Notes: a model not told the origin generated them from the sequence alone. Counted from the first letter of the stretch, positions 35,347 to 41,509 are shown. The stretch: DNA of 64,000 bases from Thiopseudomonas denitrificans (GCF_002866065.1 NZ_LNJZ01000009.1:62001-126000), one strand, 5' to 3'. Program-made: numbers and translations.

Positions 35347-36048
35347 CTAAAACAGGCTGGGCAACGGCAAGCCGACCCGCATGCACGCCCCGCCCAACGC
35401 GCCGCCATTGAGAAGCTCAAGGCTGGCTTCGGCAGATGGCTGGTCATGCATGGCGACAATGCTGGCGGCAAAGTACAGCCCGAGCCCGGTGCTGCCGGTT
35501 TCGCGGTCGATGCCGCTGGCTTCGCGCCGACGCACCGGTCCGGTCATGCCGGCAGGGTAGCCCGGACCGTCATCGCATACGCTCAACAGCAAGACCCCGT
35601 CCACCAGAACGGCATGCAGGCCGATGGCCGAACGGCAATGATTCAGGGCATTGCCCAGCGCATTATCCAGCACCGTGGCAATCAGGTTGCGGTCAAAAAA
35701 GCCTTCCAGATCCGGATCGTCCAGTTCCACCTGCAACTCCACCTGACGATAGGCCAGTAGCTCGGCGTGGCGGTTATGCAAATCCTCGAACAGGTCGTCC
35801 ACACGGCAGTAGCCACCCTGCAGCTGCAACTGGCCATGTTCAAACTTGTACATGCCCAGCAGCTGTACCAGCATGGCATCCAGCCGCAGGGACTCGCGCT
35901 CGATCAAGCGCACTTCGGCAGACTGCTGCAATTCGGCCGGCATCTGCGCCACCAGGCTCTCGTACGCATGGCTGACGGCAGCAATAACGTTTTTCATGTC
36001 ATGCACGCTGGATGCCATCAGCGTGGAAAAATCGACCTGCTTCACCAT
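35347..36048 (-). CDS. Soluble histidine kinase without sensor domain
   Basis: The 233-residue product is a compact histidine kinase: phosphoacceptor box SSVHDMKNVIAAVSHAYESL (His about 16), then the ATPase domain with DNALGNALNHC (N box), DDGPGYPAG (G1) and STGLGLYFAASIVAMH (G2). It has no membrane segment or N-terminal sensor, so its input must come from a partner. GGAGGT lies just before the ATG at 36048, deciding the start; the frame extends upstream without kinase similarity. Its start overlaps the end of the response regulator gene by 7 nt, so the two are probably translationally coupled and form a two-component pair. The 172 nt between it and smc hold nothing I recognise. Confidence 0.85.
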   Translation of the reverse strand: MVKQVDFSTLMASSVHDMKNVIAAVSHAYESLVAQMPAELQQSAEVRLIERESLRLDAMLVQLLGMYKFEHGQLQLQGGYCRVDDLFEDLHNRHAELLAYRQVELQVELDDPDLEGFFDRNLIATVLDNALGNALNHCRSAIGLHAVLVDGVLLLSVCDDGPGYPAGMTGPVRRREASGIDRETGSTGLGLYFAASIVAMHDQPSAEASLELLNGGALGGACMRVGLPLPSLF

Positions 36049-37634
36049 GGGCGTACCTCCAGCGGGTTGGTCATTCGGGAAAATTCTCGCGCTTCCGGCT
36101 CCAGCGGCGAAAGCTGGCCGATGCGCTGCAAACAGGCCTGCAACAAGGTGCGTGCCTGCCCGTCGTGGTCTGTGGCGGCCTGTGCCGCATACAGGCGGGC
36201 GGCAGCCATGTTCAACCCGATCAGCGCGGGAGCCTGCTGCAGCGCATGCGCAAACAACCCGGCGGCCTGCTCCGGCTGGCCGGTCAGTTGCAAGGCAACC
36301 GCCTCCCGCCCCTGGCGCACCGGCTGCTGCATGGCCCTGATGTCGTAGTCCGGCAGGCGTGCGGCCAGTTGCTCCGGCACACCGGTCACCGCGCTGTGAC
36401 GCTGCGCACAGTGCTGCCAGCATTCCAGCGCGGCCGGCCTTTGGTCGAGCTGCTGCAGCCAGTCGCCCAGCTGCAGCAGGGTCATTGCCGCATAACCCGG
36501 CAAGCGGGTGCGCAGCTCGTCCGCAACATCGTGCAGCTGCCCTGCATCCACCGCCCGGCCCCGGATGTGCTGTTGTGCCAGACGCAACAATGCCGTGGCA
36601 GGCTGCAACACCGGTGTCTGCATGTCGCTCTGTTCCAGGATTTTCAACCAGTTTTGCGCCTCATCGGCAGCCCGTCCCTTGTTGCCGGCCAGCAGAATGG
36701 ACGCCAGTTGCCACAACAGCTCGGCATCAAAGGCAATCGAGTGACGCCCGATCTCCCAGCACTGGCGCAGGGCATGTGCGGCCACATCTGGCTGACCGGC
36801 CAGCCAGGCATACCGGGCCAGCGCGATCTGGCGGCGAACGGTATTGGGCGACAAGGCTACGGCCTGCTGCAGCGATTGCACCATGACGGCAAGGTCGTTG
36901 GCGTGTGCGGCCTGTGTGGCACGAATATCGTGCAGCTCCGGCATCAGCGGAAACTGCCGCATGCCGGCATCCAGCAAGGGGCCAAGCCGTTCCTGCCGGT
37001 TTTGCTCCAGCCAGAGGCCGGCCAGCATCTGCAGGTTCCAGCTGGCCGGCCGGCTGCGTGCCTGCTGCTCCAGCAATTGCTCCAGCTCGCCATGGCGGCC
37101 CAGTTGCCGGAGCGCCTCGGCCTTGTAACGCTGGCACAACACGGCATGGCGCGAGTCCTGTTCCTCGATGGTCTGGCAGGCCTGCAAAACCTGCTGGCAA
37201 TCGCCCCGTTCCAGCGCGCTCAACACCGGCGCCAGCACTTGCTTGCGCCGGACCAGCCGCTCCAGCCGGGTTTGCAGGGCCACTTTGCTGAACGGCTTGC
37301 TCAGATAGTCATCCGGCTCGCACTCGATGGCGGCCAGCACCATGGCCTGGGTGTTTTCTGCCGTGACCATGATGAAAATGCAGTGCGGCGACAGCAGTTT
37401 TTCCGCATGCAGGCGCTCCAGCACCTGCTGGCCACTGACACCGTCCCCCAGGTTGTAGTCATGCAGGATCACGTCGTAACGGTTGCGCCGGCACAGCTCC
37501 AGCACATCTTCGCCATTGGCTGCGGTATCGATCTTCTGAACCGCCAGCAGCCCGAGAATGCCGCGAATGGAGCTGCGAAACTCGGAAAAGTCATCTACCA
37601 CCAGAAACCGCATTTTGCTGAAATTGATCATCAT
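36042..37634 (-). CDS. Response regulator with long helical repeat (TPR-like) region
   Basis: The 530-residue protein has an N-terminal receiver domain (about 8-125) with acidic pair Asp14-Asp15 (VVDDFSEFR), phosphoacceptor Asp59 (VILHDYNLGDG), Thr in MVTAEN and Lys in YLSKPFSK. The rest is helical and rich in Ala, Leu and Gln, with recurring segments such as ALLIFDEV-like helices replaced by units like GLWLEQNRQERLGPLLDAGM and AARLYAAQAATDHDGQARTL, consistent with tetratricopeptide-like repeats. There is no DNA-binding domain, so output is probably by protein contact. GGGGAA precedes the ATG at 37634. It is followed by, and overlaps, the soluble histidine kinase gene. Confidence 0.82.
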   Translation of the reverse strand: MMINFSKMRFLVVDDFSEFRSSIRGILGLLAVQKIDTAANGEDVLELCRRNRYDVILHDYNLGDGVSGQQVLERLHAEKLLSPHCIFIMVTAENTQAMVLAAIECEPDDYLSKPFSKVALQTRLERLVRRKQVLAPVLSALERGDCQQVLQACQTIEEQDSRHAVLCQRYKAEALRQLGRHGELEQLLEQQARSRPASWNLQMLAGLWLEQNRQERLGPLLDAGMRQFPLMPELHDIRATQAAHANDLAVMVQSLQQAVALSPNTVRRQIALARYAWLAGQPDVAAHALRQCWEIGRHSIAFDAELLWQLASILLAGNKGRAADEAQNWLKILEQSDMQTPVLQPATALLRLAQQHIRGRAVDAGQLHDVADELRTRLPGYAAMTLLQLGDWLQQLDQRPAALECWQHCAQRHSAVTGVPEQLAARLPDYDIRAMQQPVRQGREAVALQLTGQPEQAAGLFAHALQQAPALIGLNMAAARLYAAQAATDHDGQARTLLQACLQRIGQLSPLEPEAREFSRMTNPLEVRPW

Positions 37635-37672
37635 GAAATTCCCCGGACAACGGCTCCTGTTGGGCCGATCCT

Positions 37673-38758
37673 TTATGCGACAGTTGCCGGTGCCTTGGCC
37701 AGCCTGAACAGCGTATGGCCCAGACCGACGTCATCCTCCTCGGACAACAGGACAAAACCTGCCTCGTGCACCAGCCGCAGCAGCTCATCACTGCGGTAGA
37801 AACGGCTGTTGCCATTGGCCAGACAGGTGAAATAGAGCGATGTGGCATTCAGCGAGTAACTCGCCGCCGCATGCTGTTGCCGGTCCCAGAACAGCTCGAG
37901 GATATACAGCCGCGCATCATCCGGCATGGCGGCATGGGCCGCCCGCAGGATGTGCAGGACCTGCTCCGGCGAAAAACAGTCGAGGAACTGGCTCATCCAC
38001 CACAGGTCGCCGCTGCGCGGCAAGCGTACATCCGGCTCCAGCATGTTGGCCGGATGCAGGCTGACCCGTTGCGCAAAACCCTGCTGCACCATGCTGGCAC
38101 CGGCCAGCTGCAGTTGTTGCGGCAAGTCGACCAGGGTCATTTGCACGCTGGCGTCATGCTTCAGGCACTGGCTGGCCCAGCGTCCGGTATTGGCGCCAAC
38201 ATCGACAATATGCTGCGGGGCGTTGTCACCGAATATCTGTTTGAGCAGTTCGGGAAAGGCGCGGTCGCTATAGAAATGATCAAACTCGAACCAGCTGGTG
38301 CGCGCCGGTTCCGGCAATGCGGCCAGCGCCGGATAGATGGTCGGCCAGTCGCCCAGCTCGCTCAGGCCGGCCGGACGCCCATCACGGATGGCGTCGTCCA
38401 GATGCTCCATGGCGCGATAACACACATCATCGGTGAAGGCCATGTTGACCCGGGTCATGTCATCATGCAGCAGGAAATAGCCGGTTTTGGCCAGCCGGTA
38501 CAGGCTGCCGTCAAAAATCACCAGACGACTGCTCATGCCCATGTCCAGCAGCACCTGCACGCCATATTCGTCCACACCGGTTTGCTGCGCGAGTGCCGCC
38601 ACGTCACACCCCTGTTTGCCGGCGGCATCCAGCGCTTCGAGGATGCCCAGCCGCAACAGGCTGCGGGCAGCCTGGAAGGCAATGGGGGCAAAAGCAAGGT
38701 ACTGGGCCAGTTCCTTGGCCTGCATGGCGGTCAGATTGTCTTGCGCATGGTGCGGCAT
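37673..38758 (-). CDS. SAM-dependent O-methyltransferase (family 2, plant-type fold)
   Basis: The 361-residue protein has an N-terminal dimerisation/winged-helix region (about 18-100; AFQAARSLLRLGILEAL, GVDEYGVQVLLDMGM) and a C-terminal Rossmann methyltransferase domain with SAM motif HIVDVGANTGRWASQCL (183-199), TLVDLPQQLQLA and DLWWMSQFLDCFSPEQ. This is the architecture of hydroxyneurosporene, acetylserotonin and polyketide O-methyltransferases; the substrate cannot be told from sequence. The usual catalytic His in a WxxxHxxxD motif is not clear: the equivalent region reads WMSQFLDCF. AGGAG precedes the ATG. Its neighbours are signalling genes and a flavin reductase, with no obvious biosynthetic cluster. 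Confidence 0.78.
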   Translation of the reverse strand: MPHHAQDNLTAMQAKELAQYLAFAPIAFQAARSLLRLGILEALDAAGKQGCDVAALAQQTGVDEYGVQVLLDMGMSSRLVIFDGSLYRLAKTGYFLLHDDMTRVNMAFTDDVCYRAMEHLDDAIRDGRPAGLSELGDWPTIYPALAALPEPARTSWFEFDHFYSDRAFPELLKQIFGDNAPQHIVDVGANTGRWASQCLKHDASVQMTLVDLPQQLQLAGASMVQQGFAQRVSLHPANMLEPDVRLPRSGDLWWMSQFLDCFSPEQVLHILRAAHAAMPDDARLYILELFWDRQQHAAASYSLNATSLYFTCLANGNSRFYRSDELLRLVHEAGFVLLSEEDDVGLGHTLFRLAKAPATVA

Positions 38759-38868
38759 GGATCACTCCTGTCGGGTACGTTGAGGGCCGGCGATCAGCTC
38801 ACCGGCCCGGTGCAAATGGCAATCATCCTGTTTTTGCCATCACAGTCAACGTATAAAACAGGATTCCA

Positions 38869-38910
38869 TGACGGTACCCCCGTCAGGCAGCGAAGCCATG
38901 CGCCTGACGG
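38869..38910 (-). promoter_or_regulatory. Two mutually exclusive hairpins upstream of the methyltransferase gene
   Basis: GCCTGACGG (minus strand, 38888-38880) can pair either with CCGTCAGGC upstream (38910-38902, 9 bp) or with CCGTCA downstream (38874-38869, 6 bp). They lie just after the reductase stop and about 110 nt before the methyltransferase start. There is no U-run, so a classical attenuator is not evident. Regulatory role is inference. Confidence 0.35.
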
Positions 38911-38912
38911 AC

Positions 38913-39638
38913 TCAATAGCCGGTAAAGCTCTCGCTGTGGATGTCATCCTCGTCAACGCCGGCATCCTCAAGAATGTCATACATGGCTTCCACCATGGCC
39001 GGCGGCCCGGACAGGTAAAACAGCGGCTGTTCGAGGTCCTGGCAATGCTGGCGAATACCTGCGGCATCGAAGTAGCCGGTCGGACCGTCCCAGCTCAGGG
39101 CAGAATCATCCATATTGGTCATGGTGGCCACCAGACTGAAGGGCGGGTACTGCTGCTGCAGTTGCTGCAGCTCAGCCAGAAACGCGGTGTCTTCCGGCCG
39201 GCGGTTTGAATACAGCAGGCGCAACGGGCGCTGCAGCTGCCTGTATGCGGAATCGCGCAGAATGCTCATGAAGGGCGTGATGCCAATGCCGCCGGCAATC
39301 AACACCAGTGGTCGCGCCGAATCATCCGGCACCAGCGCAGTGCCGAAAGGGCCTTCAAATTGCAGCGTTGCACCAACCGGCAAGTCCGCCAGGGCATTCT
39401 TGAACGCACTGTCACGCATGCGTGTTGCTACCGTCAGCTGGCCCTCGTGCGGCGCACTCACCAGCGAAAACGTGTGCATGACATCCTGCAGGGGCGCGCC
39501 GTCCGGGGTCCCTGTCAGGCTCAGGTCAATCGACTGGCCGGGCGAGAATTCGAACCCTGCCGGTTTGGCAAGATGGAACTCCTGAGTGCCCCGGGCCAGC
39601 TGTGTGCCGCCTGTCAGCTCGGTATGAAGAATGGTCAT
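38913..39638 (-). CDS. Ferredoxin-NADP reductase-like FAD/NAD(P) oxidoreductase
   Basis: The 241-residue flavoprotein has an FAD-binding barrel (about 1-100; FEFSPGQSIDLSL, HTFSLVSAPHEGQLTVATRM, GPFG) and an NAD(P)-binding domain with LIAGGIGITPFMSILR (113-128), LLYSNRRPEDTAF and FYLSGPPAMVEAMYDIL. The usual RxYS flavin motif is replaced by HTFS. No ferredoxin-type [2Fe-2S] cysteines are present, so it needs a separate electron partner. The start at the ATG ending at 39638 (MTILHTELTG) is supported by AAGGGGA upstream; the frame continues upstream into the chemoreceptor gene. It lies 31 nt after that gene, so they are likely cotranscribed. Confidence 0.82.
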   Translation of the reverse strand: MTILHTELTGGTQLARGTQEFHLAKPAGFEFSPGQSIDLSLTGTPDGAPLQDVMHTFSLVSAPHEGQLTVATRMRDSAFKNALADLPVGATLQFEGPFGTALVPDDSARPLVLIAGGIGITPFMSILRDSAYRQLQRPLRLLYSNRRPEDTAFLAELQQLQQQYPPFSLVATMTNMDDSALSWDGPTGYFDAAGIRQHCQDLEQPLFYLSGPPAMVEAMYDILEDAGVDEDDIHSESFTGY

Positions 39639-39669
39639 TGCATGTTCCCCTTCAGGCTGTTGATCAGGC

Positions 39670-41292
39670 CTACAGTCTGAACTGACTGACCAGTCGGCGC
39701 AACTCGAGCGCCAGCTCCACCAGTGCCTCGCTTTGTTCATGCGTGCCTGCGGCACCCTGCGAGGTGTTGTCGGCAATCTGGCTGATGGTCGCGATGTTGC
39801 GGTTGATCTCTTCAGCCACTGCACTCTGCTCTTCTGCCGCTGCCGCAATCTGCAGGTTCATGTCATTGATGCCCGATACTTCCGCAGCAATGCTGTTCAG
39901 GCTCTGCGCCGCGTTCTCTACATGACCCACACTGTGCGCCGCCCGCTGACGGGCAACTTCCATTGCCTTGACCGCATCGGCAACCGCCGCATGCAGACGC
40001 TGGATCATCTGCTGGATCTCTTCGGTGGAATTCTGCGTGCGTGATGCCAGGGTACGCACCTCGTCGGCGACCACGGCAAAGCCCCGGCCCTGTTCGCCAG
40101 CCCGTGCCGCCTCGATGGCAGCGTTCAACGCCAGCAAGTTGGTCTGTTCGGCAATGCCGGTGATGACACCCAGCACCTCGCTGATGCTGGAGGAGTCGGC
40201 CTGCACCCGTCCAACCACCTGCGCCGCCTGCTCGATCTCCTCGATCAACAGGCCAATCGCCTGGCTGGCCTCGCTGGCCACGCTGACACCCTGCCGCGCC
40301 TCGTCATCGGCGTTCTGCGAAGCCTGTGCGGTACGCGCCGCATTGCCCGCCACCTCCTGCACGGTAGCGCTCATCTCGTTCATCGCCGAAGCCACCATGT
40401 CGGTTTCGGTACGCTGTTGCATCACCTGCTGCAGGGTATTGTCAGCCACGCTGGACACCTCGTCCGTCACCCGGCCCAGACGCCCGGTAACATCGGCCAC
40501 TGCCTGCAGGCTATGACGGAACTTGGTGATCATCTGGTTGAAGGCATGTCCCATGGCCCCGATTTCATCATTGGCACCAATGCTGACGGTATGGCTCAGG
40601 TCGTCATCCCGGGTCATGTCTTCCATGGTGCGGCGCAGGGCATGCACCCGGCCGATCACCACACGCCGGACAATGGCAATGATCACCGCCAGCCCCAGCA
40701 CCAGCAACACGGCCTGGATCAGCGCCGACGTCCAGAAATTGCGTTGCACCTGCTTGTCCAGCTCTTCCAGTGAATAGCTGATGCGCACAGCCCCGACCAC
40801 CGAATCTTCCGGCACCATGTGGCACATCAGGCAGTCAGTTCCGCGATAGTTGCGGCTGGCATGCACCGGATTGATCACGGTGAGGATACGCTGACCGCTG
40901 CTGCTGTCGATCTCGATAATGGCTTCATCCTGCAGGGCCCGACGGTCAAGCTCGTCGGCCGGAGCCTGGTGGTCATAACCCGGGCCAAATACCGAGGTAA
41001 TCGCCTCGTTGCGGATGATGCGGGCATCCACCACACCGGGACGCTCGAGGATTTTTTCGCGCAGCACGCCACGCTGGGCCATGGTGCCGGTCAGCATCAT
41101 GGTGTTGATGCTGTCAAAATAGCTGTCGGCAGCGTCCCTGGTTTGCTGCTCGACCACCTCAAGCACCAGTTTGCGCTCGGCCATTACGGAAAACGCCAAT
41201 GAGACGGCCATAATGACAAAAAAGACGGCCAGTAGCGCCAGGTTGATCTTGCTTTGTACTGACAGCTGCCGGGGCTGATTGGTAGGGCTCAT
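39670..41292 (-). CDS. Methyl-accepting chemotaxis protein with a periplasmic CxxCH haem-c motif
   Basis: The 540-residue chemoreceptor has membrane segments at about 17-37 and 187-208, a periplasmic domain of about 150 residues, a HAMP domain (about 210-265) and the cytoplasmic signalling domain with the hairpin tip [20 protein letters not shown] and [13 protein letters not shown]. The periplasmic domain has CLMCH at 154-158, a c-type haem attachment motif, within [21 protein letters not shown] redox or gas-sensing role is inferred. GGAG is 8 nt before the ATG ending at 41292; a longer frame from 41349 lacks such a site. I see no C-terminal CheR-docking pentapeptide. It heads the minus-strand signalling cluster. 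Confidence 0.88.
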
Positions 41293-41454: not shown

Positions 41455-41509
41455 GATAAAGGGGTCAGGTACATTTAATCGGAGATTAAATGTACCTGAC
41501 CCCTTTATC
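41455..41509. repeat. Perfect 26-bp palindrome with 3-nt loop (REP-like element)
   Basis: Arms 41455-41480 and 41484-41509 are perfectly complementary, separated by GGA. The core of each arm contains AAAGGGGTCAGGTACATTT or its complement AAATGTACCTGACCCCTTT. This core resembles REP-type palindromes associated with IS200/IS605-like RAYT transposases in gammaproteobacteria; that link is from memory and no transposase gene is here. It lies between DUF2058 and the chemoreceptor gene, in their 236-nt gap. In RNA it would form a very stable hairpin on either strand but has no U-run. Confidence 0.8.

Follow-up and report, generated by a model that had tools for sequence, protein, structure and literature searches.

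The five genes that lie in a row between positions 35347 and 41292 of the window (the whole stretch of 64,000 nucleotides from Thiopseudomonas denitrificans that was analysed) are likely to be a lineage-specific juxtaposition of three units and not one system. These units are a haem-c chemoreceptor (MCP) with a reductase-like flavoprotein (FNR), an O-methyltransferase (OMT), and a response regulator (RR) with a histidine kinase (HK), the last of which is the one linked to motility. The unit that is truly conserved is the two-gene RR-HK pair. An earlier note on this DNA had proposed the interval as the best local candidate for an undescribed system, in the form of a five-gene redox signalling cassette. 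The five-gene form of this idea has had to be given up beyond Thiopseudomonas, while the two-gene RR-HK unit still fits it, and the process best supported for that unit is motility. The host genome is 2.84 Mb in size and belongs to the Pseudomonadaceae, and the features of the interval are as follows.

35347-36048, minus strand: HK, a sensor-less histidine kinase of 233 aa, whose gene overlaps the RR gene
36042-37634, minus strand: RR, a predicted VieB-like response regulator, REC plus TPR superhelix
37673-38758, minus strand: OMT, a class-I SAM O-methyltransferase with a dimerisation domain, FlxJ-like
38759-38912, minus strand: FNR-OMT gap of 154 nt, with hairpins and a promoter-like site
38913-39638, minus strand: FNR-like flavoprotein, an FNR-superfamily reductase (FAD, NAD(P)H) that lacks a ferredoxin domain
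39670-41292, minus strand: MCP, with a predicted haem-c Cache-type periplasmic sensor, HAMP and an MCP signalling domain
41461-41503, no strand assigned: 19-bp perfect inverted repeat GGGGTCAGGTACATTTAAT, upstream of MCP, a REP-like dispersed palindrome

A reading of the open reading frames of the window gave five intact genes, all on the minus strand, and recomputed gaps of 31 nt (MCP-FNR), 154 nt (FNR-OMT), 38 nt (OMT-RR) and -7 nt (RR-HK), in agreement with the order and spacings reported previously. The shared strand and short spacing are therefore real; the five genes may form one transcript or several. The 154-nt FNR-OMT gap contains two GC-rich hairpins and has a folding stability far above that of its shuffles (z -4.7). 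A consensus scan also found a promoter-like site in it (TTGACT-16-GATGAT, 38849-38822, 9/12 matches), and the gap is a possible start of a separate transcript. An Rfam search of the gap returned no family, with weak miRNA- or snoRNA-like chance matches elsewhere. The palindrome GGGGTCAGGTACATTTAAT upstream of MCP lies outside the signalling genes and by its distribution is REP/REPIN-like: its half-sites occur 25 times genome-wide (with up to 2 mismatches), often as close inverted pairs, as compared with 0 for a reversed-pattern control. The sole genome match to Y1_Tnp, the REP-associated transposase type (G000:C2:290636-290911), is short and carries a stop codon, so that these palindromes may be without a live transposase of this family.

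Evidence that the five genes do not form a conserved system came from their neighbourhoods in a sample of 148 Pseudomonadaceae genomes, 38 of which have RR; the surroundings of RR were read in these 38. The complete five-gene order was present only in the window genome (G000) and in one other Thiopseudomonas (G006), and neither FNR nor OMT was found near RR in the other Pseudomonadaceae loci examined. HK lies nearby in 77 of 79 named RR loci, FNR and OMT together in one, that of G006. In a third Thiopseudomonas (G037) MCP-FNR and RR-HK are on separate contigs and OMT is absent; here MCP-FNR stands beside yjgA-mazG-msbA, as in the window, and RR-HK has flgK and flgL just upstream. The linkage of four or more genes in distant genomes that the earlier note had named as support for a system was not found, the five being together in two Thiopseudomonas only, and with the split in G037 and its missing OMT a conserved five-gene redox cassette was rejected beyond Thiopseudomonas.

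A genuine five-gene redox or NO cassette might have come together recently within Thiopseudomonas, with MCP as the sensor, FNR and OMT modifying a small molecule and RR-HK adjusting motility. The proteins encoded in G000 and G006 have diverged to 62-84% identity while order and strand are the same, which indicates that the order has persisted in two species, and RR and haem-MCP co-occur above chance among flagellates (see below). Set against this, the arrangement is broken in G037, OMT is missing from both G037 and a fourth Thiopseudomonas (G023), and in G023 FNR stands instead beside a sulphite/nitrite reductase gene. The gaps also differ between the two species that share the order, FNR-OMT being 63 nt in G006 (vs 154 nt in the window) and OMT-RR 242 nt (vs 38 nt), and RR-HK of G006 retains the SNF2/metH neighbours that it has in G037. 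We regard such a cassette as distinctly unlikely and favour juxtaposition of separate units, in which FNR and OMT appear to have come along as passengers, unrelated in function. In G037 the place next to FNR that is occupied in the window by OMT-RR-HK holds another REC-containing protein (L174, 509-1309).

The two proteins of the conserved pair are a response regulator with helical repeats and no DNA-binding domain and a kinase with no sensor of its own, as had been read from the DNA at first sight. RR begins with a CheY-like REC domain (Pfam Response_reg, E 1e-20) in which D14, D15, D59, T91 and K113 are intact, D59 and K113 being invariant among homologues. Its C-terminal part gives weak Pfam TPR matches, and is modelled as helical hairpins (pLDDT 88.7) whose Foldseek matches are TPR superhelices. 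Domain searches and the predicted structure revealed no DNA-binding domain, and on this combination of domain matches and modelling RR is assigned as a VieB-like REC-TPR regulator. HK has the canonical features of a histidine kinase, with an H-box (HDMKN, H16) and a HATPase_c domain (Pfam) carrying the N-box NALGNA, G1 DDGPG and STGLG; NCBIfam kinase matches reach over the H-box, and the catalytic motifs are conserved in 14 homologues, the catalytic residues being invariant. An input domain of its own is absent: no sensor, transmembrane input or other domain was found in the 233 aa, and the H-box is preceded by 15 residues.

HK adjoins RR in Pseudomonadaceae wherever the contig allows, with 1-2 loci excepted, and the closest named relatives of RR are in Thiopseudomonas and Denitrificimonas. 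The RR profile matched in 37 of 274 genomes of a class-wide sample of Gammaproteobacteria, from 29 genera, and the pair is found in about 25 Gammaproteobacterial families. In the other families of the class HK (about 222-260 aa) was next to RR in 16 of the 20 loci read, which together with the 77/79 named loci shows the sensor-less two-component pair to be real and widely conserved. There was no match to RR outside the Gammaproteobacteria in a phylum-wide sample. One family (f118; L276, L277, L280, L281) has several REC-TPR paralogues with no adjacent kinase.

The closest described relative of RR in architecture is VieB of the Vibrio cholerae VieSAB system, which likewise has an N-terminal REC domain with an acceptor Asp, a TPR output, no DNA-binding domain and an adjacent kinase gene. 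VieB binds and inhibits the kinase VieS, and phosphorylation of its REC domain modulates this inhibition (PMC4352251). The partners of VieB, however, are VieS, a hybrid kinase bound to the membrane, and VieA, a regulator of DNA-binding/EAL type (PMC4352251), whereas the partner of RR is a small soluble HK and there is no counterpart of VieA. A second likeness is to PSPTO_1911 and PSPTO_1912 of Pseudomonas syringae DC3000, annotated as 'Response regulator/TPR domain protein' and 'Sensor histidine kinase' respectively (PMC11813219), the former of which was classed as VieB-like in a survey of 2007 (as PSPTO1911; PMC2222644). Like RR-HK, these are an RR/TPR protein and a sensor kinase, with consecutive locus tags in a flagellar region, and their annotation, their order and their place close to flagellar genes make them apparent orthologues of the window pair. 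In the P. syringae-group loci that were read the RR is about 34-36% identical to that of the window and, as a point of difference, no FNR, OMT or haem-MCP stands beside the pair. A single line in a screen table (PMC11813219) and the VieB-like classification (PMC2222644) were all that was found on the pair, which appears to be little studied in the papers searched.

RR-HK is probably tied to swimming, because three kinds of evidence point to a role in motility. Firstly, flhA is present in 34 of the 37 RR carriers of the class sample as against 111 of the 237 non-carriers (47%; Fisher p 8e-8), an association for which phylogeny and genome size are possible confounders. Secondly, flagellar or chemotaxis genes recur as neighbours in separate lineages: flgM-flgN-ycgR, with families confirmed, lie within 8 kb of the pair in 19 of the 79 named loci, all of them Pseudomonas, and in family f112 genes of CheW and FlhB C-terminal type stand beside RR-HK. 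Thirdly, when transposon mutants of P. syringae DC3000 were screened for fitness, PSPTO_1911 and PSPTO_1912 fell together with cheA, cheY and cheW among the genes that contribute to swimming (PMC11813219). Several RR-HK neighbourhoods are without motility genes, and the pair might alternatively be a regulator of general stress or of polarity, with a flagellar link that arises only through both being frequent in the large genomes of free-living bacteria. The diversity of its neighbours, which include a polyamine ligase, an acyl-CoA ligase, metH and glycosylation genes, would suit such a regulator, as would the three carriers that have no flhA. This reading sits poorly with the repeated nearness to flagellar and chemotaxis genes in separate lineages and with the appearance of both genes alongside cheA/cheY/cheW in the fitness screen (PMC11813219), and we consider it unlikely.

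The chemoreceptor of the interval may meet RR-HK in function, also where the genes are not linked. MCP has HAMP and MCPsignal domains (Pfam), one CXXCH motif (residues 154-158) and a sensor that is predicted to have a Cache fold, in agreement with its first description as a haem-c chemoreceptor. Pfam by itself was set aside as a guide to the sensor, its only match being a weak one to the Tll0287-like family (E 0.13, below the cut-off), and the identity was settled by fold. The model of the sensor (pLDDT 91.6) has GSU0935 (3b42) as its top Foldseek match (E 2.3e-5) and scores Z 10.2 against Tll0287 (5b82), although WalK and other Cache domains score equal or better by Z. The CXXCH sits in the model between strands 136-144 and 165-174, the third and fourth, and is invariant in 27 sequences. 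The sCache_haem domains are defined by a CXXCH in this place, and members fused to signalling domains bind NO stably; stable NO binding and covalent haem have been reported for a HAMP-containing member (PMC12889525). The modelled sensor has both the Cache fold and the CXXCH in this position. In common with GSU0935 and Tll0287 it is a periplasmic Cache fold with the CXXCH between strands 3 and 4, here fused to HAMP and MCP domains (PMC12889525), and it differs from the Tll0287-like Pfam family in matching it so weakly as to suggest a divergent branch. By analogy with the fold of these haem-c Cache domains, MCP is probably a periplasmic sensor of NO or redox state.

Homologues of the haem-MCP sensor were found in 40 of the 274 class genomes, and at all loci read they are MCPs. 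Many stand in chemosensory clusters with CheW, CheR, CheA and CheB. FNR, OMT and RR-HK were all absent from the 12 haem-MCP neighbourhoods that were read. Among flagellate genomes, haem-MCP is present in 16 of 34 RR carriers as against 19 of 111 non-carriers (p 0.001, or p 0.006 when collapsed to families), and a control Cache domain, sCache_2 (PF17200), showed no association with RR. At most, this co-occurrence hints that MCP and RR-HK might be connected in function where their genes are not neighbours. Compact clusters of CheW, CheR, CheW-like, CheA and in some cases CheB genes with the haem-c MCP at their head occur in several families (L220, L221, L222, L224, L226, L227).

A mechanism for the pair can be proposed in which HK autophosphorylates at H16 and the phosphate passes to D59 of the RR REC domain. 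Since HK has no sensor and RR no DNA-binding domain, contacts of the TPR superhelix would serve as both the input and the output of the pair. By analogy with the binding of VieS by VieB, the TPR would bind HK, or a component of the flagellum or of the chemotaxis machinery, or both, under the control of REC phosphorylation, and the net outcome would be that swimming is tuned. MCP would for its part feed the ordinary chemotaxis pathway as it senses periplasmic NO or redox state. That a pair without classical input and output domains runs flagella or chemotaxis by protein contacts alone, with the TPR at both ends and in trans with haem-c (NO-sensing) chemoreceptors, is put forward tentatively, as a possibility that we hold to be less than even. 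If the pair does regulate swimming, many Gammaproteobacteria have, besides CheA/CheY, a second and receptorless phosphorelay into motility. The route by which a signal enters a sensor-less HK is a question that a small soluble two-protein system would make easy to test, and RR-HK offers a concrete candidate partner pair for the published P. syringae motility screen.

The remaining two genes are enzymes whose first descriptions were borne out. FNR has NAD_binding_1 as its only Pfam match, partial NCBIfam matches of MmoC/BenC type and an HTFS/GGIG pair of the kind usual in the FNR superfamily; a domain search gave no [2Fe-2S]/ferredoxin domain match, in keeping with a ferredoxin reductase-like flavoprotein. 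OMT has Dimerisation2-like and Methyltransf_2 domains (Pfam), as expected of an O-methyltransferase. It matches the solved structure 3dp7 (E 4e-102) and NCBIfam NF053543 ('FlxJ family methyltransferase') over its full length, sharing with both the dimerisation and O-methyltransferase domains, and differs from the latter in scoring 452 bits, below the curated cut-off of 560; a literature search on 'FlxJ' found nothing. OMT occurs in 7 of the 148 Pseudomonadaceae genomes and would be a sporadic FlxJ-like unit apart from MCP/FNR and RR-HK.

MCP and FNR could themselves be a two-gene redox-sensing unit, being adjacent in three Thiopseudomonas genomes (G000, G006, G037). They are next to each other only there, FNR being missing from the 12 more distant MCP neighbourhoods that were read, and the FNR homologues of Denitrificimonas-group genomes have no MCP beside them. 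The sensor, moreover, is periplasmic and FNR cytoplasmic, and we think such a unit improbable. The FNR homologue of G023 is divergent beside a nitrite/sulphite reductase gene (L175, 2598-5174), an arrangement that is also seen with the OMT homologues of two other Pseudomonadaceae (L182, 5075-8551; L183, 7371-10888).
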